Shown here one piece after another: positions 1,046 through 12,468 of a stretch of DNA of 20,535 nucleotides. How positions within the stretch are numbered: position 1 is the first letter of the stretch; each line of letters begins with the position of its first letter. Both the position numbers and the translations under genes were made by a program. The notes beneath the pieces are model-generated. The model worked only from the letters and a program-made list of their open reading frames with translations. It searched no databases and was not told the origin of the DNA. The stretch spans positions 1-20,535 of the IMG/VR virus record IMGVR_UViG_3300031696_000084. The stretch is one strand, 5' to 3'. This stretch comes from a virus.

Positions 1046-1257
1046 ACTGGCAGACTGTTAATCTTTTCTTTCATGAGGTTGAGGTCACTTGCTTCAAGAG
1101 CAATACACTGTTTAATCTTTGTATTGATTAGCTTTGCCGCTGTTTCAACTTCAATTTCATTCTTATCGCAGTACCAGCATATGGCATCCATATATGGTAT
1201 CTTTAATTCATTAACAACTTTTTCAATTGTTATTGAGAAGTTCTTTGTATCGAGCAT
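1042..1257 (-). CDS. 33: gp33-like late-transcription coactivator
   Basis: T4 gp33 binds host RNA polymerase (the beta flap) and bridges it to the sliding clamp to activate late promoters with the sigma factor gp55. This 71-aa protein is shorter than T4 gp33 (112 aa) but has the pattern I know from marine T4-like phages: YMDAICWYCDKNEIEVETAAKL, here residues 22-43, followed by a Leu-rich stretch and a short C-terminal tail ending INSLPV, which could be the clamp-binding hydrophobic tail. The identification rests on this pattern, the size and the position directly before 59. It abuts the stop of the SleB-like gene with no gap. Confidence 0.75.
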   Translation of the reverse strand: MLDTKNFSITIEKVVNELKIPYMDAICWYCDKNEIEVETAAKLINTKIKQCIALEASDLNLMKEKINSLPV

Positions 1258-1839
1258 TTATTTTTCCCATCTATAAAAAATATGATCATCAATCTTTGTT
1301 GTTCGTGTCTTTGTTGCAGCCCAAGCTGGCTTAACATAGTCCGCATGATAGTGTGTTGCACCATCAGTAATATCTACCACAAGCTGAGTTATAATAATAT
1401 CTGCAAGTTTTGTTATATTCATAAACGTATCAAAATCTTTTACAGTATCAGATAGACCATCGCAAAACCAACTAAATTGACAACGGTGTTTAATAGGGTA
1501 TTCTTTTGTTTTGTCGTTCCAAGATACTCTGGTCGGACCTTCCATTACAACTTCGCATATTGTATTGGGGTAACGATGGTCGTTCATACGGTTGATAGTT
1601 ACCAGTGCCACAGCCATTTGTCCAGCTATAGATTGGTTCCTTGCTTCATGATATATATTCATGGCAAGGCAGATCAGCTCGGGATCTGTTTTCTCTTCTA
1701 CAATTTCAGGCTCCACAACAGCCTCAACAACTGGTTCAAGAACTTCTATAGGAGGGCTAACCTTTTCCTCAGCAAGAATAAAACTTGCTGAGAATGCAAC
1801 TAACGAAATCGCAGGTATTACCAATAAGTATTTTTTCAT
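1258..1839 (-). CDS. Exported SleB-type cell wall hydrolase
   Basis: This is a likely endolysin of the SleB/Hydrolase_2 family, which cuts the glycan backbone of peptidoglycan. Residues 1-23 form a signal peptide or signal anchor (MKKYLLVIPA, hydrophobic core, then ILAEE), followed by a Pro/Val/Glu-rich linker (about 24-50) and the catalytic domain (about 52-193) with AMNIYHEARNQSIAGQMAVA (Glu65 as the expected catalytic acid), INRM, and CQFSWFCDG (120-128). Export by the host Sec system would make holin timing unnecessary or turn it into a signal-arrest-release mechanism. A GAGG ribosome site precedes ATG 1839, and its own promoter lies at 1870-1898. It is co-transcribed with 33 and 59. Confidence 0.85.
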   Translation of the reverse strand: MKKYLLVIPAISLVAFSASFILAEEKVSPPIEVLEPVVEAVVEPEIVEEKTDPELICLAMNIYHEARNQSIAGQMAVALVTINRMNDHRYPNTICEVVMEGPTRVSWNDKTKEYPIKHRCQFSWFCDGLSDTVKDFDTFMNITKLADIIITQLVVDITDGATHYHADYVKPAWAATKTRTTKIDDHIFYRWEK

Positions 1840-1869
1840 TCACATCCCTCATCATCAATCAATATAACA

Positions 1870-1898
1870 ATAATAACCTATTTAATTACATAAGTCAA
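1870..1898 (-). promoter_or_regulatory. Sigma70-like promoter for the SleB-33-59 operon
   Basis: On the minus strand there is TTGACT (1893-1898), a 17-nt spacer and TATTAT (1870-1875). The -35 is preceded by the AAAATAACCC flank seen in the other promoters of this family, and it lies 10 nt downstream of the TGA stop of the preceding gene. Confidence 0.7.
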
Positions 1899-1907
1899 GG
1901 GTTATTT

Positions 1908-2123
1908 TCATTTTTCTGGAACAACTGCTATTGCCCGAGAAACCTCTTTGTCCAAATCACCCATAGTTTGCGTTAAGGAAGTCAATTGATCGCGTAGATC
2001 AAAAGCACCAGATGTTGTATTGTCTCCATCTAACGCTTCAAGAACTTGTAATTTCTGAGTAAAGCAAGCTACATGACTGGCCATTTCGTTTAAAGTATGT
2101 AATTTCATTTCATTGTTTGTCAT
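1908..2123 (-). CDS. Small hypothetical protein (71 aa)
   Basis: The function is not recognised. The protein starts MTNNEMKLHTLNEMASHVAC and continues as a helical, heptad-like sequence with a LRDQLTSLTQTMGDLDKEV segment that could form a coiled coil. The frame extends upstream to a TTG, but ATG 2121-2123 is preceded by AGGA with a 9-nt spacing and is chosen. It lies behind its own promoter (2163-2191) with a leader, TTAACACTTGATAGGAAA, nearly identical to leaders of genes at 9.1 and 9.5 kb, so it probably belongs to the same regulon. Confidence 0.65.
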   Translation of the reverse strand: MTNNEMKLHTLNEMASHVACFTQKLQVLEALDGDNTTSGAFDLRDQLTSLTQTMGDLDKEVSRAIAVVPEK

Positions 2124-2162
2124 AATATAGTTTCCTATCAAGTGTTAATCCCTATTATACTA

Positions 2163-2191
2163 ATTATAGTTTATTTTCATAATAAAGTCAA
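2163..2191 (-). promoter_or_regulatory. Sigma70-like promoter, -35 overlapping a stop codon
   Basis: TTGACT (2186-2191), a 17-nt spacer and consensus TATAAT (2163-2168) on the minus strand. The TGA stop of the upstream gene (2188-2190) lies within the -35 box. Confidence 0.8.
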
Positions 2192-2796
2192 GGGTTATTT
2201 TCAATAAAAACAATGTTTTTTGAAGATTCAACAATCAATGTTGGTTCTGAACCAGCGCGGTTTATCCATATAAAATAGACAACCATACTAAATACTAATA
2301 GAACTATAATAACCTTGCCAATTTCACCCATAATGTAAAGAACCCTGTCCCAAAACGCATTTTTTTCTTTGATGCGTTCTTCAGTAGCTTCTTTCAGTTT
2401 TTTACGCTTTATGTTGCGTTCTACAATCATCTTCTCACGTGTCTCTATAATCTCTGTCCATGTTCCTAATCCAAACTTGTTGTCGATCCGAATACCCAAG
2501 TTTAAGATGTCCCGGTCTATTTTCTTCTGTTCCAACACCATGGCCGCAACATTACCAACACTAAGATCGTCTTCTGTATCTTCGTTTGTTTTTTTATTAA
2601 AGAAAAGGCTCAATTTGCTTTTGGGTTTAACTTGTTTGCTTTTCTTTACTTCTTTTGCTACAGCATCACGGTGTTTGAATAGCGAGTCGAGTCCAGAGTA
2701 AATACCTTTTACATCATCAGCTGTATCAATAGCGGACTTTACAGCATCGACGGCACCTTTTACAAGTGCAAATGCAGCCATACTTTCTACAATCAT
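2188..2796 (-). CDS. C-terminally membrane-anchored helical protein
   Basis: This 202-aa protein is of unknown function. The N-terminus is Ala/Val-rich and helical (residues 5-45, with VKGAVDAVKSAIDTADDVKG), then comes a Lys-rich linker, a charged helical middle (about 85-145) and one membrane span near residues 158-180 (IGKVIIVLLVFSMVVYFIWI), leaving a short polar tail. The start ATG 2796 has GAGG at 8 nt. It follows the N-terminally anchored coiled-coil gene by one base, suggesting the two products work together at the inner membrane or in the virion. I know similar conserved hypothetical proteins from marine T4-like phages but no role. Confidence 0.7.
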   Translation of the reverse strand: MIVESMAAFALVKGAVDAVKSAIDTADDVKGIYSGLDSLFKHRDAVAKEVKKSKQVKPKSKLSLFFNKKTNEDTEDDLSVGNVAAMVLEQKKIDRDILNLGIRIDNKFGLGTWTEIIETREKMIVERNIKRKKLKEATEERIKEKNAFWDRVLYIMGEIGKVIIVLLVFSMVVYFIWINRAGSEPTLIVESSKNIVFIENNP

Positions 2797-2797
2797 G

Positions 2798-3370
2798 TTA
2801 TTTCCTCATATTTGCTAAAGGATTTTCCAATGCTTTCTTTATCTTATTATTTATCTCACCCTTTAAATTTTTCATCTCGCTCTTAATACGAGTTTCAAGA
2901 TTATCCATATCGTTTCGTAATTGCTCTCTGCGTTTATCAAACCGATCACTACTATCTGTCACTAACTTGCGAACTTTTGTATCGTTAGTATCAACACTTT
3001 CTCTTACCATACGAAACGCTTCTTTACCACGCTTCTCTATATCATCCACCTGTTTTGACATATGATGTATTTCTTCTTTTAAGTCTCTTTTTATATCTTT
3101 TGTATAATCTCTTGCATCATTGGCTGATTGTTTTATCATATTTTCCATCTCTTTAAGTGCTACCATCTCACCATGCAACACTGCAAGTTTTTGTTTAAAG
3201 TCAGACAAATCTGGTGCTTGATAACTTTCTATTTTTTCTTTCATATCCATATAATCTTTATACACTTCAAACGCACCATATAGACCACCAACCAGAGTCG
3301 ATAATGCCATAACGATAGCAATCATTTTACCGCCTTTAAATTTTACTCCAGCAAATTCTACTTCAGCCAT
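2798..3370 (-). CDS. Membrane-anchored coiled-coil protein
   Basis: A 190-aa protein of unknown function. After a short N-terminus (MAEVEFAGVKFKGGKM) there is one hydrophobic segment at about residues 16-35 (IAIVMALSTLVGGLYGAF), then a long, highly charged helix from about 40 to the end with repeating Glu/Lys/Asp and Met/Leu/Val heptads, predicting a continuous coiled coil. It is the middle gene of a tightly spaced set (2188-5439). Such a tethered rod could be a structural or membrane-spanning adaptor; this is inference only. Its final codons, AGG AAA TAA, form the ribosome site of the next gene. Confidence 0.7.
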   Translation of the reverse strand: MAEVEFAGVKFKGGKMIAIVMALSTLVGGLYGAFEVYKDYMDMKEKIESYQAPDLSDFKQKLAVLHGEMVALKEMENMIKQSANDARDYTKDIKRDLKEEIHHMSKQVDDIEKRGKEAFRMVRESVDTNDTKVRKLVTDSSDRFDKRREQLRNDMDNLETRIKSEMKNLKGEINNKIKKALENPLANMRK

Positions 3371-3372
3371 GA

Positions 3373-4959
3373 TTATCTCCTATACTGGGTTCCTATTAAT
3401 GCATCGTGATCACTGTCACTGCCACCAAATAAAAAATAAGATGTATAGTTGTTATCTGATATATTATTATCAGGTATTGATCTGTCACTAAAGAAATTAG
3501 GTGTATCTTTCAGTTGCGCTTGAGTATTGAAGAAACTCTTTGTGTTACCCAACACTTGCATAATAACAAGTGTTTTTATTTGATTGGTATCGGAGTATTT
3601 TTTGTTGCCCATCTTCTTAACTGCTTTATTTCCAGCCTTTGACATAGCCTTCTTCTTTACCGCTGCCTTCTGTTTGACAGTAGTCTTTTTTCCTTTTGAC
3701 TGAGTGCTCGAATTAGAACTTCTAGACGGAGCAGAACTTCCAGATTTTTTGGGCTCAACAATGGAAACTTTGGATTTTGCACTCTGTTTTTCTTGAGCAA
3801 CTTGTTGTTTGACTTCTGGTTCTGCTTCTGGTTCAACTTCAAGGGATGATGAGACTGATTCTGACTCCACAGATGTTCCTGTATCAGATGTACTTGCTGT
3901 ATCATTTGTTATCTCCGATATCTGTGCTATTTCAGCAACTTCTAAAGTAGTTTCTACTGAGGCAACAACTGTTGGTAATGGCACAACTACAACAGGTGCA
4001 GATATAGTTGTTTCTGCTACGCTTGTATCACTAACAATATCAATTGTTCCTGTTGCAATATCATCTGCTGTAGATGTGCTTATAACAGCGCATGTGTTTA
4101 GAACTTCACAGCTAATATTAGTAATGAGAGTATCGTATGTTAATGCTGTAGTAATTGTCTCTTCTATTTCGTTATAGGTAAAGGTAGTAAATACATCATT
4201 AAAGAAAGGACCAAATCTGTGATCGCCATTAAGAGCTGTATTTCCAAATATAGTTAACACCCCAGTATCAACAACACTCCCAGAATCTATTTCTAATGCA
4301 CCAGTTCTAATAGTTGGGGCAAATATTACAGTACTACCAATTTCAGTACTACCCAATGATGAATTATCTGAATCAAACAATTCTAATTTTATTGACCAAG
4401 TATCTGCTAGATTGTTTCCTGCTTGATCATTATCTACTTCTGCACCAAAAGAAAATGTCATTCCCTGTGCTTCTTCTGTCGAATTAATTGCGTCTGGAAA
4501 AAGATCATCCTGGGTATACGATTGGGTTATCGTGCCACCGTTGCCTGCCATAAATCCATTATTAGGACTAAATGCACAACCACCTGGGCATTGTGTAATA
4601 GACCAACCACTACTTGAACCACCGCCAAGTGAATTTGTAAAGGTAGGATTTGTTACAACATTAGGAGCCTCAGTTTGGGTAACACCAAATGTAGTTGTAG
4701 TTGTTGTAATTGGGGTTGTCTGGGTAGTAGTAGTTGAATTATCATCGTTAGTAACAGTAACACTAGTCGGATTACCACTTGATGTACCAGTAGTAGATGA
4801 CCCGTCTAAAATTGTATTTGAGTTTACCCCGCCTGCGTTAGAATATGAGGAAGGGAGGAATACCAAAGAGCATACCAACAATGGCAAGAGCAATCCCACC
4901 GCTGACGTATACACCAGTTTCTGGAGCTTCTGTAATTCGTTCTTCGTCGGAATAATCAT
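3373..4959 (-). CDS. Exported Ser/Thr-rich protein
   Basis: A protein of about 528 aa and unknown function. It has a Lys-containing n-region, a hydrophobic core (GLLLPLLVCSLVFLP) and a likely cleavage site after SYSNA, then a Thr/Ser-rich segment, a beta-rich globular part around residues 100-300 with WSITQCPGGC and a later C..C pair, a Val/Thr/Glu-rich linker, and a Lys/Ala-rich basic stretch (KKTTVKQKAAVKKKAMSKAG) before the C-terminus. Low-complexity linkers and a basic tail suggest an extended surface or fibre-like protein. The frame is open back to the amber stop of the upstream gene; I chose ATG 4957-4959, though no strong ribosome site is visible and ATG 4969-4971 is possible. Its 5' end overlaps the alternative frame of the preceding gene. 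Confidence 0.65.
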   Translation of the reverse strand: MIIPTKNELQKLQKLVYTSAVGLLLPLLVCSLVFLPSSYSNAGGVNSNTILDGSSTTGTSSGNPTSVTVTNDDNSTTTTQTTPITTTTTTFGVTQTEAPNVVTNPTFTNSLGGGSSSGWSITQCPGGCAFSPNNGFMAGNGGTITQSYTQDDLFPDAINSTEEAQGMTFSFGAEVDNDQAGNNLADTWSIKLELFDSDNSSLGSTEIGSTVIFAPTIRTGALEIDSGSVVDTGVLTIFGNTALNGDHRFGPFFNDVFTTFTYNEIEETITTALTYDTLITNISCEVLNTCAVISTSTADDIATGTIDIVSDTSVAETTISAPVVVVPLPTVVASVETTLEVAEIAQISEITNDTASTSDTGTSVESESVSSSLEVEPEAEPEVKQQVAQEKQSAKSKVSIVEPKKSGSSAPSRSSNSSTQSKGKKTTVKQKAAVKKKAMSKAGNKAVKKMGNKKYSDTNQIKTLVIMQVLGNTKSFFNTQAQLKDTPNFFSDRSIPDNNISDNNYTSYFLFGGSDSDHDALIGTQYRR

Positions 4960-4977
4960 CGGGCATATCATATTCAA

Positions 4978-5439
4978 CTACCCGCTGTTCTTCGTTACTT
5001 TTTTTTTAACGTATTTGCTATCGTCAGGAGCATCCTCTGGGTTTTCTAACCATGCAGCTTGAGCAGCATCCCCAATTCGACCTTTGTATGGACAAGGTGT
5101 ACCAGCCATCCACATTGCATCAAACACTCTTGCGTCTTGGCATAATAATGAAACACCAGCAACTTTCATACCCATACCATACATACTACGAGCAAGTTTG
5201 AGTCTTTCACAATTTTCATCAGTAATAGTAATGCCTGAAGCAAATCCAAGTATCTGTGTTTGGATTGCAGCACTAGCCGCACTCTTACATACATCGCTAT
5301 TATTAATAACAATTGACGGAGCCGATGCTGTTGGTGGTGCTTTATCGGTCACTACTGTAGACGATGTATTTGTGTCAGCAGCAAGTAATATAGAAGGATA
5401 AAACAATACCAAAGCAAATATTATTGCTTTGAGTTTCAT
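4978..5439 (-). CDS. Exported conserved phage protein, possible frameshift
   Basis: The in-frame product is 153 aa: a signal peptide (MKLKAIIFALVLFYPSILLA, cleavage before AD), a Thr/Ser/Pro-rich stretch, then a conserved region with SAPSIVINNSDVC, NCERLKLARSMYGMGMKVA, LLCQDARVFDAM and AGTPCPYKG, with cysteines suited to disulfides. Near its end is a run of nine A (4999-5007). A -1 slip there would avoid the TAG at 4978 and add 53 residues, an acidic stretch then a hydrophobic segment (GGIALAIVGMLFGIPP), ending at TAA 4838-4840, 200 aa in all. A good ribosome site (AAGGA) precedes ATG 5439, and a TATAAATA box lies upstream. Confidence 0.75.
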   Translation of the reverse strand: MKLKAIIFALVLFYPSILLAADTNTSSTVVTDKAPPTASAPSIVINNSDVCKSAASAAIQTQILGFASGITITDENCERLKLARSMYGMGMKVAGVSLLCQDARVFDAMWMAGTPCPYKGRIGDAAQAAWLENPEDAPDDSKYVKKKVTKNSG

Positions 5440-6032: not shown

Positions 6033-6094
6033 AACCTCAGTCAAGCGTTTTCCTCATAGCTAGAACCTCAACCAAGCGTTTCAAGGGTAGCTAG
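6033..6094. repeat. Imperfect 31-bp tandem repeat
   Basis: Units 6033-6063 and 6064-6094 match at 23 of 31 positions, sharing AACCTCA at one end, CAAGCGTTT inside and TAGCTAG at the other. The second unit overlaps the stop codon of the Na/Pi-like gene. No long hairpin or T-run was found, so it is not an obvious terminator. Confidence 0.6.
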
Positions 6095-6528
6095 TATCTA
6101 GTCAGGAAACGAGCTATATGATGTACAAATGGAAGGAGTGATATAGACATGAACAAATTTGCTCCAGTATGTGCAAGTGCTATTCTCAACGTGTCCCCTT
6201 TAGGCATACCATCACTTACAAGGAAACCAGCAATCCATATTGTACCTGTCGTTCCAATATTTGCTCCAAGAACAGCTGCAATAGCAGCTGGAAGAGGAAC
6301 AGCCCCAGAAGCTACCAATGCAATAATAGCAGTAGTAGATAGGGAAGATGATTGCCAGAGTATCGTCATTACAATACCGCCAAGGAACATCCAATAGGGA
6401 TTGTGAATAAAATAACTCAAATGATCTAGGTTTCCCATCTGCTTCATTCCACCAGAAAACATCTTTAAACCAATATAGAATACTACTAGTCCAACTAGTG
6501 TTGTCAGTACAGGATTACCAAGCTCCAT
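6091..6528 (-). CDS. Single-repeat Na+/phosphate cotransporter-like protein
   Basis: This is a membrane protein of the Na/Pi cotransporter family (PF02690-like, NptA/SLC34 type), which moves phosphate inward with sodium. It has the family's WQSSSLSTTAIIALVASGAV signature (residues 58-77, QSSS 59-62), GANIGTT (88-94) and ALAHTGAN (117-124). Spans: about 6-27, 45-57, the re-entrant QSSS region to about 78, 79-104 and 117-137. Full transporters carry two inverted QSSS repeats; this 145-aa protein carries one, so it would have to dimerise or associate with a host protein. The start is ATG 6528 (AAGGTG at 6 nt) rather than ATG 6561, which has no ribosome site at normal distance. It lies directly downstream of the tmRNA. 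Confidence 0.8.
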   Translation of the reverse strand: MELGNPVLTTLVGLVVFYIGLKMFSGGMKQMGNLDHLSYFIHNPYWMFLGGIVMTILWQSSSLSTTAIIALVASGAVPLPAAIAAVLGANIGTTGTIWIAGFLVSDGMPKGDTLRIALAHTGANLFMSISLLPFVHHIARFLTRY

Positions 6529-6598
6529 CTTTTTCACCTTTTTTATTAATTTATTTTTCATTATTATTATTATCTATATCCTCACATTCAAATAGAGT

Positions 6599-7034
6599 GG
6601 TGGGTGATTCTGTTGCTAGGACACCCACCGAAACCCCGACAATCACAGCTTACGCTGCAAGAGCCATTGGTGATACATTATCGTTTGCATCTATAGTGTT
6701 TGGCGAATAACGCTGCCAGTCGGTAGTTCTACTCTCATCTATCCCTGCCTGTCGATCCTATTTCGCCCCCATCATAAACACACGATACGAATCTTCAAAC
6801 CCCTCTTCGGCCATGTAACTCTCATTATTATTCCACATTCTTTTAAAATAATAATCGTAACAATCTTCTATGGTTTGTTTTGATACGTTAAGATGTCCTT
6901 TAACAATATAAAATATTTTACATTTAAATTTAAGATTGCTAATACTTCTATTCCTTATTCGTGTGCTTATGGTGGAGGCGTGGGGTACTGCCCCCCAGTC
7001 CAGTACAGTAGTCAATTTGTATCAACGAACTACA
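6599..7034 (-). ncRNA. ssrA: Circularly permuted (two-piece) tmRNA
   Basis: tmRNA rescues stalled ribosomes by adding a degradation tag. The acceptor piece comes first and ends at an encoded CCA (6972-6970) after CGCCTCC and A; just before it TGGGG-GGCAGTA-CCCCA forms a T-arm. A 199-nt intervening segment (6969-6771) follows, then the coding piece starting GGGGGCG at 6770, continuing with the tmRNA-like GGATCGACAGG. GGGGGCG pairs with CGCCTCC over 7 bp, including G3-U70, the alanine-tRNA identity pair. The coding piece carries a TAGATGCAAACGAT resume region (E. coli: UAGUCGCAAACGAC), the tag and a P5-like hairpin with the stop codon in its loop (6643-6660). A stem 6599-6606/6622-6629 lies at the 3' end. 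Outer ends are approximate. The T-loop is non-canonical and I could not pair P2 by eye. Confidence 0.9.
6650..6688 (-). other. tmRNA tag reading frame
   Basis: The resume codon is GCA (6686-6688) and the tag is ANDNVSPMALAA, then TAA (6650-6652). The ANDN start resembles alphaproteobacterial tags (for example Caulobacter AANDNFAEEFAVAA), and the C-terminal ALAA is the ClpXP-type degron also found in the E. coli tag. The stop codon sits in a GUAA loop closed by UUGCAGC/GCUGUGA. Confidence 0.9.
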
Positions 7035-7040
7035 ATCTTA

Positions 7041-7069
7041 TTTATAGTCTATATTGACTGAAATGTCAA
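7041..7069 (-). promoter_or_regulatory. Promoter of the tmRNA gene
   Basis: Consensus TTGACA (7064-7069), a 17-nt spacer and TATAAA (7041-7046) on the minus strand place the start of transcription near 7034, just before the acceptor piece. The same place holds a TATAAATA octamer (7039-7046) resembling a T4 late promoter. The TGA stop of the upstream mini-gene lies in the -35. Confidence 0.75.
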
Positions 7070-7227
7070 CCCTTTTTTACAATTGCAATTACGCCCCATG
7101 CAATAGCTGCATAAGCAGCAATCTTAACAAAAGGAGCTCCAATTAAAATGACAACACCCATGGCGATAAGAGCACCACCGTGAAGTGAAGATGCTTCTTT
7201 GATTCGTTCTTTAATGTAATCGATCAT
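7066..7227 (-). CDS. Small membrane protein (53 aa)
   Basis: The function is not recognised. A charged amphipathic start (MIDYIKERIKEASSLHGG) is followed by two closely spaced hydrophobic stretches, ALIAMGVVILIGAPFVKI and AAYAAIAWGVIAIV, and a short KKG tail, so it is probably an inner-membrane protein of two spans or one long hairpin. Its size and layout are holin-like, but nothing proves that role. ATG 7225-7227 overlaps the stop of the upstream gene (ATGA), with AAGGA about 8 nt before. The stop codon overlaps the -35 of the tmRNA promoter. Confidence 0.7.
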   Translation of the reverse strand: MIDYIKERIKEASSLHGGALIAMGVVILIGAPFVKIAAYAAIAWGVIAIVKKG

Positions 7228-9924: not shown

Positions 9925-10392
9925 CTAATTTTTAGGGAACCGCTCTTGGAAAGGGAAATCATAGAACATAAGCTTAGTTTTGCTGGTTTCAAATAGATTC
10001 TTTTTCTTCTTACGAGACATCTTACCCTTCTGAGCTATACCCTTCTGAGCACGTTTCTGAACTCTCTGGAGCTGCTTTTGCTTCTCCTTGGTCCATGGGA
10101 AACGAATGAGTAGATCATCTTTACCATCATGGACTACCATTGTGATGTACTTCTCACCCCAAACATTACCAATAGAGTGATACTTGTATACGAACTCTTT
10201 AATGAATGGTTCATGCCTTGATCTGCCGATAAACTCTTTATTGACCATGAATGTTGTATAAACAACACCAAGAACGACACCAACCACGACATACTTAAAA
10301 AAGGGGCTTTTTACGACAAGAGGGATAAAGCATACAATCCCTGCAAATATCCATAACAGTAACAAATTTGTTGATGTGAATAACATATCCAT
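9925..10392 (-). CDS. Membrane protein with basic cytoplasmic tail
   Basis: A 155-aa protein with two N-terminal spans (about residues 8-28 and 33-50: LLLLWIFAGIVCFIPLVV and FKYVVVGVVLGVVYTTFMV), a soluble part, and a strongly basic segment around 100-130 (KEKQKQLQRVQKRAQKG, SRKKKKNLF). The function is not recognised. Its start overlaps the stop of the ExbD-like gene (TAATG), and it completes a three-gene membrane cassette with the MotA/ExbB-like gene, so it may be an accessory subunit. It is the last gene of the long rnh operon. Confidence 0.7.
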   Translation of the reverse strand: MDMLFTSTNLLLLWIFAGIVCFIPLVVKSPFFKYVVVGVVLGVVYTTFMVNKEFIGRSRHEPFIKEFVYKYHSIGNVWGEKYITMVVHDGKDDLLIRFPWTKEKQKQLQRVQKRAQKGIAQKGKMSRKKKKNLFETSKTKLMFYDFPFQERFPKN

Positions 10393-11021
10393 TAGGGTCG
10401 ATCCATATATGGTATTGATTGAAGAGCGACATCGTTAACAATCAGTTGATTACTTTCATGAAAGACAACATCACCATCATTAAGGACTTCAAATTCAAAC
10501 ACATGCTTCTCTTCACTAGGCTCAGTGAGTGTTACCTCTACAATCTTTAGAATCCTATACGGGTTTACCTGAAGTAATTCAATCTTAATGTTTTCAGGTG
10601 TTATATCAGGGTTACCAAGATTGTTATAAAAATGTGTTGTGACTACATATCTTCTCTGTGTCTTTGATCTGATGCTTATAACTTCTCTATTGACAGGGAT
10701 AAGTTCAACATTTTCCTTGGAGGTATACATATCGTTCCGATCACCAAGGTCATCTCTATCAAGTGTGAGCAAAGCAAAATCTTTTGCGCGGAAACCAACT
10801 ACGTTATCCTTATCGTCTTTAATCCATAGATCGATATCAGATTTACTATTATCATCCCATGACATAATAACAAGATACTCAGCCTTTGGGTCATGAGCTT
10901 CTTTTTTAGCGACTGGATTGATAAGAATGAACGCAAGCATGAATAGGAATGTAAAACCTACAAGAAGGTTAAACAATAAATCTACAAATCCAAACGTGCT
11001 TTTATATCGATTTGTGTCCAT
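10392..11021 (-). CDS. ExbD/MotB-like single-span protein
   Basis: This 209-aa protein has a short cytoplasmic N-terminus, one span (about residues 12-34, FVDLLFNLLVGFTFLFMLAF) and a large periplasmic domain. In ExbD, TolR and MotB a single N-terminal span with an essential Asp carries the proton path; here Asp14 lies at the start of the span, as expected for that role. The periplasmic part includes SDIDLWIKDDKDNVVGFRAK and LTLDRDDLGDRND, a beta-rich motif unlike the peptidoglycan-binding domain of MotB. It lies one base after the MotA/ExbB-like gene. The partner assignment is inferred from topology and adjacency. Confidence 0.65.
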   Translation of the reverse strand: MDTNRYKSTFGFVDLLFNLLVGFTFLFMLAFILINPVAKKEAHDPKAEYLVIMSWDDNSKSDIDLWIKDDKDNVVGFRAKDFALLTLDRDDLGDRNDMYTSKENVELIPVNREVISIRSKTQRRYVVTTHFYNNLGNPDITPENIKIELLQVNPYRILKIVEVTLTEPSEEKHVFEFEVLNDGDVVFHESNQLIVNDVALQSIPYMDRP

Positions 11022-11022
11022 G

Positions 11023-11472
11023 TCATGTATTTTCGTAAATAATCATTTGTATCTTAATGATAGTTGAACAAACAAGTCCCACCAATGTAGTAACAAGAGC
11101 AGTGCTCATACCAATAGCCATGTCAGATATGGCTTCCTGCACGTTTTTAATATCATTTACATCTAAACCAGTGAACGCTGTATTCAACATGATAAGGAAG
11201 CCAGCAACAGTACCAATCATACCAAGCGTGACCATTACCTCGCTGCCAAACCAAACATAGTTAGTTAGCCTATCAACGTGGTCCCAGTTAGTGCTTTTAA
11301 GACTGATGAACCCAATTGATAGAGAGGAGATTATAAACACACCAATAATAACAAAACTGATCTTCGTCATGTCAGCATTGTATAGAAACTCCCACCAACC
11401 ATATTGATCAATCATGAATGCAGAGAAAACAATAATTGCTGTCTGTATCCACCATTTCAAGGCTGCATTCAT
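11023..11472 (-). CDS. MotA/TolQ/ExbB-like proton channel protein
   Basis: The MotA/TolQ/ExbB family forms inner-membrane pentamers that couple proton flow to motion of a single-span partner. This 149-aa protein is short for the family. It has spans at about 9-27, 37-57, 77-97 and 115-143; the last two carry the family signature, LGMIGTVAGFLIML (83-96) and ISDMAIGMSTALVTTLVG (115-132). The large cytoplasmic loop between the first pairs is reduced. ATG 11470-11472 overlaps the previous stop, with AAGGA at 8 nt. The next gene encodes the ExbD-like partner. Confidence 0.82.
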   Translation of the reverse strand: MNAALKWWIQTAIIVFSAFMIDQYGWWEFLYNADMTKISFVIIGVFIISSLSIGFISLKSTNWDHVDRLTNYVWFGSEVMVTLGMIGTVAGFLIMLNTAFTGLDVNDIKNVQEAISDMAIGMSTALVTTLVGLVCSTIIKIQMIIYENT

Positions 11473-11792
11473 AATTTAGGTCCTTTTATTTGTTGTTTAA
11501 ACCAACCACCCCCAATAATACAGGAAACGCCTGAAATTGATGTTTCCATTATTGTAAATGTTTTATTCTTTGGACTTCTATATATTGAAAACACGACCTG
11601 TACGTTCTTATCTGTTTCTGGTTCATACATGCCAAGGTATTCAAACTCTGTTTCACCAGCAGCAGTAATTTTTTCAGTTATCTCAGTATGCGGACCGCAG
11701 ACGACTGGCTTGGGAACTAACTTAATTGATTCTTGAGCAACCACAGGGTTTGTAAGCATCAAAACTAGTGTAAGAACCGCCCATTTAAACAT
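11469..11792 (-). CDS. Small exported protein (107 aa)
   Basis: A signal peptide (MFKWAVLTLVLMLTNPVVA, cleavage before QES) and a small periplasmic domain with CGPHTEITEKI near the N-terminus, FEYLGMYEP, an FTIME strand and SCIIGGGW near the end; the two cysteines probably form a disulfide. I recall similar small exported proteins with a CGP...SC..GxGW layout in alphaproteobacteria and their phages, of unknown role. It is coupled to the MotA/ExbB-like gene downstream (ATGA), so it may act on the periplasmic side of that channel. AGGA stands about 7 nt before the ATG. Confidence 0.7.
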   Translation of the reverse strand: MFKWAVLTLVLMLTNPVVAQESIKLVPKPVVCGPHTEITEKITAAGETEFEYLGMYEPETDKNVQVVFSIYRSPKNKTFTIMETSISGVSCIIGGGWFKQQIKGPKL

Positions 11793-11796
11793 TGTA

Positions 11797-12468
11797 TTAT
11801 CCTATACGACTTGTAAAAAAATGATCGTCTTTGTATTTATAAGGGTCTCCCATAAATAATTGTGGCTCGTTATCTTGCACAGCAATTATAATTAACAATT
11901 GATCTGCCTTTACGCCATACATCTCTTCAAGCATAAACGAATAAGCAGAGCATTGGAGATAATAATCTTTAACCCAATCTCGTTTCTTTGGCTTCATTGA
12001 TGTCTTAAAATCAACGACAGTCAACTGACCTTTGATATCAGCAATACAATCTACCCGACCTGCCAATTTATATACATCACTATACAAAGCGCACTCTTGC
12101 ATATAGACTTTTGTGATTGCTTTATCGAGGATGGGTCTGATTGTGCGGAACATATCAACAGCGTTTGGCATTGCTTTACCAACATAATCTTCTTCATTGT
12201 TGAGATAGTTCTCACAGATGGTATGCATGGAAGTACCACGTGTAGATGCCAGGCGACTAATACGATTGGCTTCTTTTTCGCCAACTCGCTTTCGCCACGC
12301 CATTAATCCTTTTTTCTTTTCTGGATCTTTACCGAGAGCAGTGGTAACTGATTCATACAATTCACCCGAGGGAGTGACATATCGCCTTCCCTCAGGTGTT
12401 GTTGTAGCGTTTAAATCAACAGGTGTGAACCTGTCATCATGAACAAACTTAGTAGTAGATACCTTCAT
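11797..12468 (-). CDS. PD-(D/E)XK exonuclease
   Basis: A RecB/Cas4-like nuclease of 223 aa, probably acting on DNA ends in phage recombination or host DNA breakdown. Motifs in order: RGTSMH (78-83), the helix that positions DNA in RecB-type nucleases; AGRVDCIAD with Asp140; VVDFKTS (151-157), the D-X-K core; and QCSAY (172-176), the usual motif IV Gln/Tyr. The length is normal for a stand-alone phage member. The start overlaps phoH by 20 nt and has no strong ribosome site, so it is probably translated by coupling. Confidence 0.85.
   Translation of the reverse strand: MKVSTTKFVHDDRFTPVDLNATTTPEGRRYVTPSGELYESVTTALGKDPEKKKGLMAWRKRVGEKEANRISRLASTRGTSMHTICENYLNNEEDYVGKAMPNAVDMFRTIRPILDKAITKVYMQECALYSDVYKLAGRVDCIADIKGQLTVVDFKTSMKPKKRDWVKDYYLQCSAYSFMLEEMYGVKADQLLIIIAVQDNEPQLFMGDPYKYKDDHFFTSRIG
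11834..11841 (-). promoter_or_regulatory. Possible late promoter inside the nuclease gene
   Basis: TATAAATA on the minus strand, 42 nt before the ATG of the exported protein at 11792. It could give late expression of the exported-protein/MotA/ExbD-like block separately from the upstream replication genes. It is a chance-prone motif inside coding sequence. Confidence 0.25.

Follow-up and report, generated by a model that had tools for sequence, protein, structure and literature searches.

Ion-driven motors in which MotA, TolQ or ExbB is combined with ExbD, TolR or MotB have a 5:2 composition, and an aspartate in the membrane span of the axle, the hallmark of that subunit, takes up the proton (PMC9389320, in the excerpts consulted). 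TolQ rings have also been paired, by structure prediction, with membrane-tethered vWA axle proteins, and within the portion of PMC12204202 consulted this is the nearest published idea to the system considered here. Two further groups of proteins bear on it, namely Zorya, whose ZorA subunit is among the nearest scoring relatives of the ring protein described below, and the TerD family of tellurite-resistance and stress proteins (structures 2kxt and 3ibz). In Zorya, ZorA has a long tail, ZorB has an OmpA-like domain and nuclease partners are present; ordinary TerD is cytosolic.

In the current work, we describe a set of three adjacent phage genes (B, C and D) whose products very probably constitute a proton-driven ring-and-axle motor, for which we infer the complex itself, its 5:2 make-up and the flow of protons. 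The trio would represent a previously undescribed motor family, in that the superfamily of B is already known and the TerD-like axle and the extra subunit are new; no description of it was found in the open-licence full-text literature, as searched through titles and abstract openings. The known ion-driven motors are of few kinds, to which the trio would add one whose axle domain is new and which has a third subunit.

Like the MotA/TolQ/ExbB motors, the trio has a PF01618-type ring protein with a G-x-x-G-T motif and a threonine in the last span, encoded next to its partner, and like ExbD, TolR and MotB, C is a single-span partner with an invariant aspartate near the start of its span. In contrast to these motors, phage B proteins measure about 150 aa and probably combine four spans with a cytosolic linker of roughly 15–20 residues; unlike ExbD, TolR and MotB, C matches no ExbD/TolR or OmpA model and is accompanied by the constant third subunit D. 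The long ZorA tail, the OmpA-like domain of ZorB and the nuclease partners that mark Zorya are all missing from the trio. The preliminary description had set the system apart from Ton, Tol, Mot and Zorya, and this is supported by a C protein without an ExbD or OmpA match and a B protein far below the ZorA cut-off. The trio resembles the TolQ-vWA arrangement in joining a TolQ-like ring to an aspartate-bearing axle with another periplasmic domain, and differs from it in that a TerD-like domain takes the place of vWA and that D is present here only (PMC12204202, in the portion consulted); the term TerD does not occur in that portion of the text.

Genes of the locus

The window (that is, the whole stretch of DNA analysed, 20,535 bases) carries T4-type genes, a gp59 loader and PhoH, together with a permuted tmRNA of alphaproteobacterial type, and because of this combination the host of the window phage is probably an alphaproteobacterium. 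Four coupled genes had been reported in it, and all four open reading frames (A, B, C and D) were confirmed at 9925–11792 on the minus strand: A and B share a 4-nt overlap, 1 base separates the stop codon of B from the start of C, and C and D share TAATG. The genes, residues and domains that enter the argument are listed here.

11469..11792, minus strand: A, a small exported protein of 107 aa with a hydrophobic N-terminus
11023..11472, minus strand: B, a channel subunit of the MotA/TolQ/ExbB family, 149 aa (PF01618 above cut-off, span analysis)
11209..11211, minus strand: Thr88 of B, presumably a residue of the ring, within G-x-x-G-T (threonine in 94 of 98 distinct rows)
11086..11088, minus strand: Thr129 of B, presumably a further ring residue, located in the last span (threonine in 97 of 98 distinct rows)
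10392..11021, minus strand: C, an ExbD-like axle protein of 209 aa with an N-terminal span and a predicted periplasmic beta domain (model and alignments)
10980..10982, minus strand: Asp14 of C, the membrane aspartate (conserved in all 100 distinct C sequences from phages and bacteria)
10458..10883, minus strand: residues 47–188 of C, a predicted TerD-like fold with D-x-D and LDRDDLG motifs (VIA-align to 3ibz)
9925..10392, minus strand: D, a two-span protein of 155 aa with a C-terminal domain predicted to be periplasmic (model)
9952..10209, minus strand: residues 62–147 of D, a small barrel-like alpha/beta domain in the model (weak OB-fold resemblance, VIA-align Z 7.2)
11797..12468, minus strand: a PD-(D/E)XK exonuclease directly upstream of A (PF12705, E 2.9e-8; phrog_298, E 9.6e-71)
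1258..1839, minus strand: the candidate endolysin of the window, a cell-wall hydrolase of the Hydrolase_2 family situated about 8 kb away from B-C-D (PF07486, E 2.8e-20)

As for the proposal that all four genes form one unit, the B-C-D core stood and the membership of A did not. The A family adjoins the trio in only 4 of 97 phage clusters, on which ground A was rejected as a core component; it is clade-specific, lies outside the conserved trio and yielded no match in Pfam, PHROG, NCBIfam or PADLOC.

Ring, axle and third subunit

Profile searches place B in the MotA/TolQ/ExbB channel family, as its sequence had first suggested. The window protein matches Pfam MotA_ExbB (PF01618) with 25.8 bits against a curated cut-off of 22.9 (E 9.4e-6), and the same family was matched by 31 of 31 aligned relatives when judged at E≤0.01 rather than by the cut-off (the B protein of locus L010 scored 20.1 bits). 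A search of the PDB with the B profile returned 16 rows (best E 0.009); all of the top 10, and 13 in total, are MotA, TolQ, ZorA or ExbB or are named as members of that family. Thr88 and Thr129 are conserved threonines of the last two spans, and we take them to be equivalent to the pore threonines of ExbB, TolQ and MotA. Four segments rise above the hydropathy threshold (in 93/95, 95/96, 97/97 and 97/98 rows, respectively), and the cytosolic linker comprises about 15–20 residues in most rows; by this measure B probably has four spans rather than three and almost no cytosolic domain. MotA also has four spans.

For C, the single span with an aspartate near its start that had been read from the sequence is borne out by the structural model (pLDDT 86, pTM 0.74), in which the span corresponds to helix 5–34. 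In addition to Asp14, residues W55, D62, D64, L87, D90, D91, G93 and E113 are invariant in 100 of 100 distinct rows, and this set of acidic and other residues suggests a metal site, perhaps for calcium. The best VIA-align partner of the model is 3ibz (Z 11.3 over 142 residues, 3.8 A); the top five rows have Z values of 8.8–11.3, three of these five are titled TerD, and the next row falls to 5.9. The likeness to the TerD family thus lies in the fold (Z 8.8–11.3) and in conserved, aspartate-rich loops, whereas C differs from TerD in lacking a PF02342 or TerD profile match and in being membrane-tethered and predicted to be periplasmic. Because Foldseek alone (nothing in the PDB at E≤0.001) and profile–profile comparison found nothing, we speak of a TerD-like fold rather than of a TerD protein: hhalign of the C domain against a seven-sequence TerD profile failed (probability ≤0.2), and the C profile retrieved no TerD row from the PDB at E≤10. 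The preliminary description had expected a periplasmic domain of another kind than the established ones, and this agrees with the predicted fold, which appears to be neither ExbD nor OmpA, and with the absence of any ExbD, TolR or OmpA model match.

Model searches with the window C protein returned no Pfam family at E≤1, no NCBIfam match and no PADLOC model, and the C proteins of three further loci (L006, L007 and L010) have no Pfam match to PF02472, MotB/OmpA or PF02342. Two candidate identities were rejected: TerD by sequence, given no PF02342 match and the failure of hhalign; and the leucocidin rows returned by Foldseek, with TM-scores of at most 0.18. For a further candidate, DUF2135/YfaP, C has no match in Pfam. 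A TerD gene was absent from 11 of 11 searched records that carry the trio. Among viral models in BFVD, A0A292GCF5 (1088 aa) and the Cellulophaga phage protein S0A5K4 (713 aa) were hit by the C model at E≤0.001 and may contain a similar domain.

The model of D (pLDDT 86, pTM 0.63) contains the two spans first proposed for it, and the "basic tail" of that proposal requires correction. The loop between the spans holds 221 K/R against 9 D/E, with a net positive charge in 96 of 98 rows, and the N-terminal tails are acidic (15 K/R against 68 D/E). Since the inner loop is net positive, the positive-inside rule predicts an N-out/C-out topology with both ends, and hence the tail, most likely in the periplasm. 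Against the PDB, the best VIA-align row for D has Z 7.2 and none reaches 8; OB-like rows (Z ≤7.2) occur there mixed with unrelated helical rows, and an OB-fold was not accepted as an identification of the domain. D, like C, hit none of the PADLOC models.

Linkage, neighbours and spread of the trio

Conserved linkage in relatives, a check named beforehand, was found on a large scale. All three genes are present in 236 of 243 loci, and 235 of these 236 have the order B-C-D on one strand, the sole complete exception being L122 (B-D-C); among the seven incomplete loci, five are cut by contig ends and in two (L129 and L130) D was not recognised. Such recurrence is far beyond chance. The loci come from a scan of viral contigs with C (255 relatives, the best 80 of 255 taken), from two further C scans with overlapping lists (278 relatives, the best 80 taken, and 35) and from a genome scan with C (10 loci). 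Many loci are near copies, and the 196 phage-side loci were reduced by a simple k-mer rule to the 97 clusters on which the phage counts are based.

No neighbour of the trio is universal among the 97 clusters. Within 2.5 kb, ClpP was found in 11, Hsp20 in 9, ClpS in 10 and DnaK in 6 clusters, with at least one of the four in 19; ClpS, where present (10/97), always follows D directly, within 13 nt. An exported trypsin-like protease lies within the same distance in 15 clusters and a DNA polymerase in 12, while in 63 of the 97 that range is free of every chaperone and protease gene named here. The counts were made with HMMs built on seeds, chosen for ClpP, Hsp20 and ClpS from Pfam counts, for trypsin by GenBank label plus a single Pfam match, and for DnaK by a motif recognised by eye. 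Clusters within one clade have common neighbours by descent. The trio of the window is not accompanied by Clp, Hsp or trypsin genes, and its D carries no lysozyme. Bacterial trios have no neighbour in common beyond close relatives, although three trypsin-like genes stand upstream of the trio in L129, and a group of nine bacterial loci of ABC-transporter type reflects a common domain.

In four of the genome loci (L090, L094, L097 and L098) the trio sits among ordinary bacterial genes, in L094 within a chromosome record of 6.97 Mb, and these bacterial neighbours rule out phage contamination as the sole source of the genome loci. L089, by comparison, is probably a phage contig because a lysozyme fusion begins with its D. 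L090 comes from a MAG titled Pelagibacteraceae, whose class is apparently alphaproteobacterial, and 39 of 289 sampled genomes of that class have a C match at E≤0.001, two of which, with E of about 4e-4 and 8e-4 and long frames, may be false. In each of two other phyla (297 and 286 genomes), C matched a single genome, the one around which the search was centred; class and phyla are named through the titles of the loci used as centres. C was further found on seven Azospirillum plasmids, with the full trio in the one that was checked; in Azospirillum brasilense, the trio (L262) is located on plasmid p1. Matches among phage isolates (22, 27 and 10 records) were confined to rhizobial phages, and in Rhizobium phage 16-3 B, C and D correspond to p038, p040 and p042, respectively. 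The trio is thus spread over the chromosomes of one bacterial class and over many phages, including this classic temperate one. The preliminary description had not anticipated the constancy of D, the copies in bacterial chromosomes or the chaperone and protease neighbours in phages.

A tree of 80 C sequences (with L065, of ambiguous origin, left ungrouped) contains four changes between phage and bacteria, at least two of which are forced by well-supported branches. From this we infer a bacterial accessory system that phages acquired in at least two, probably about four, transfers, the direction being part of that inference.

Proposed function and its alternatives

The proton-driven motor is well supported because Asp14 of C is kept in 100 of 100 rows and Thr129 of B in 97 of 98. 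In the mechanism we propose, B would form the ring and C the axle, and Asp14 would be protonated opposite the ring threonines during proton entry; the TerD-like domain would reach the periplasm, replacing the ExbD/TolR or OmpA domain, and D would be a constant third subunit with its periplasmic domain beside C. Action on the cell envelope is likely because the domains of C and D are predicted to be periplasmic, and the fusions and exported neighbours agree with this. During infection, the phage trio would tap the proton gradient to act on the envelope, as one element in the management of envelope and protein stress, and in at least two phage lineages it would have become linked to the final breakage of the wall. 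The stress component of this proposal is based on the Clp/Hsp genes (19/97) and the exported trypsin-like protease (15/97) that adjoin phage trios. We lean slightly towards the view that phages use the trio for envelope and protein-stress management, with wall lysis in some lineages, and consider it reasonably probable that the trio is a new ion-driven motor family, borrowed by phages, that manages the stressed envelope and serves lysis in some lineages.

It is also conceivable, albeit rather doubtful, that the trio is primarily a module for lysis or its timing, in which energised B-C would hold or drive D and its lysozyme until collapse of the gradient, or proton flow, releases hydrolysis. 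A predicted periplasmic D would suit such a role, and in one phage lineage D is fused in frame to a GH24 lysozyme (Phage_lysozyme; 7 of 42 aligned D proteins), giving 13 distinct ORFs in 5 of 97 clusters, all with an intact E-D-T triad. In 12 of 12 inspected genes, however, a start codon (ATG or GTG) accompanied by a stretch resembling a ribosome site lies exactly at the junction; tethered and free lysozyme may both be made from the fused genes because of this internal start, which could release a cytosolic enzyme, and the fusion may partly reflect the loss of a stop codon. In the L068 group, an endolysin (phrog_315, E 1.7e-48) is followed by Rz (8.7e-10), Rz1 (1.2e-10) and then directly by the trio. 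Lysozyme fusion and spanin neighbours are two independent ties to the wall, and a lysis role, as suggested in the preliminary description, is supported in these two lineages only; in the window, the sole endolysin candidate lies about 8 kb away. No more than 6 of 97 clusters have a lysis gene fused to the trio or next to it, and none was seen beside the bacterial trios in the loci read. Phage 16-3 also argues against a primary role in lysis. Its trio and protease span 21.6–24.5 kb, and a figure legend locates the "silent" region between the late and early genes (PMC10460002, legend only); p036–p042, including the trio, seem by our own placement from that legend to fall within this arm, and the trio is for that reason probably dispensable for plaques.

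A more specific version of the motor, which we regard as speculative and unlikely, is a rotary machine with a periplasmic tool, in which the C axle, perhaps sensing calcium, would work D, and D would present or release a wall-active enzyme, which in one phage lineage is a lysozyme. If this were true, phages would remodel or breach the wall by drawing directly on the proton gradient of the host, with loss of the gradient as the release signal, and in bacteria the motor would serve to repair the stressed envelope.

It is very unlikely that the trio shields an infected cell or a lysogen from other phages or from host defence by interfering with DNA entry or competing with Zorya-type ZorAB. The place of ZorA among the nearest known relatives of B (PADLOC ZorA2, E 1.8e-7) invites the idea, as do the frequency of the trio in temperate rhizobial phages and its position about 4 kb from the immX genes in 16-3. 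B nonetheless scores 17.6 bits where the NCBIfam ZorA cut-off is 500, C has no OmpA-type match, and neither ZorC, ZorD or ZorE among the ten scanned proteins nor an effector in the window was found.

Still less credible is a role like that of TonB, in which the trio would energise outer-membrane transporters and thereby raise the nutrient uptake of the infected cell. B and ExbBD do belong to one motor superfamily, and a TonB-receptor-like gene was noticed by eye about 4.6 kb from the trio in the bacterial locus L090, but the loci read showed no TonB-like gene next to the trio, C has no ExbD domain match and the bacterial trios have no conserved neighbour. The ten scanned genes of the window include no TolA, TonB, TolB or Pal gene, and no Ton/Tol partner gene appears among the 25 listed of 29 families from 88 scanned neighbours. 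A plain proton leak, through which the membrane potential would break down at a late stage of infection, is hardly tenable: the phage does encode a channel-family subunit, but an invariant aspartate, a conserved TerD-like domain and D would not all be needed for a leak, and the trio is kept in bacterial chromosomes. None of the results speaks for the draining of the gradient or the block to superinfection that the preliminary description had raised.

We return to the motor that manages the stressed envelope. In that reading, the trio is the element common to the Clp/Hsp-linked stress islands of phages and to the lysozyme-fused D proteins, and whether phages run a proton-powered envelope machine of their own becomes testable. 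In phages such as 16-3, the three genes are annotated as unnamed or hypothetical.

The D-lysozyme junction

In all 12 of the in-frame fusions of the two-span protein D to lysozyme that were inspected (loci L048, L050, L052-L055, L057, L059, L060, L062, L063, and L089, the last a genome locus that is probably a phage contig), an internal ATG or GTG with a ribosome-site-like stretch lies at the D/lysozyme junction. Because this internal start and its accompanying stretch are kept, the sequences suggest that the single open reading frame would yield two products.

Genes beside and within the trio

Among the loci listed, three carry D followed directly by ClpS and then by an SbmA/BacA-like membrane protein, the latter recognised by eye:

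L157, 5280-6614, ClpS and SbmA/BacA-like entry
L159, 5238-6518, ClpS and SbmA/BacA-like entry
L161, 5256-6536, ClpS and SbmA/BacA-like entry

Upstream of the bacterial B-C (channel-axle) pair of L129, three consecutive membrane-anchored trypsin-like proteases are encoded (1093-4315), a row that echoes the trypsin-like gene found upstream of B in rhizobial phages. The trio itself is split by homing-endonuclease-like genes in two loci:

L009 (RHph_X2_25), 4535-5077, HNH gene between C and D, from annotation
L261 (NV1.1.1), 4273-5010, GIY-YIG-like ORF between B and C, recognised by eye

A possible C domain in other phage proteins

The C domain may also form part of large phage proteins, since phrog_1735 (673 positions) matches the C protein of the related locus L006 (4004-4585; E 3.4e-4) and a BFVD search returned a similar fold in two long viral proteins, A0A292GCF5 and S0A5K4.

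Other features of the window

3373-4977, minus, Ser/Thr-rich mucin-like protein, 534 aa (weak PF01456 match, E 0.008)
4978-5439, exported protein, 153 aa, adjoining the mucin-like protein gene
6091-6561, minus, Na/Pi-cotransporter domain protein, 156 aa (PF02690, E 1.1e-16)
6599-7073, minus, permuted tmRNA, alphaproteobacterial type (RF01849, 121.2 bits; RF04321, 101.3 bits)

The usual Na/Pi carriers are much longer than the 156-aa PF02690 protein. The permuted tmRNA of alphaproteobacterial type is carried by a phage fragment, and its tag was read by ARAGORN as ANDNVSPMALAA.
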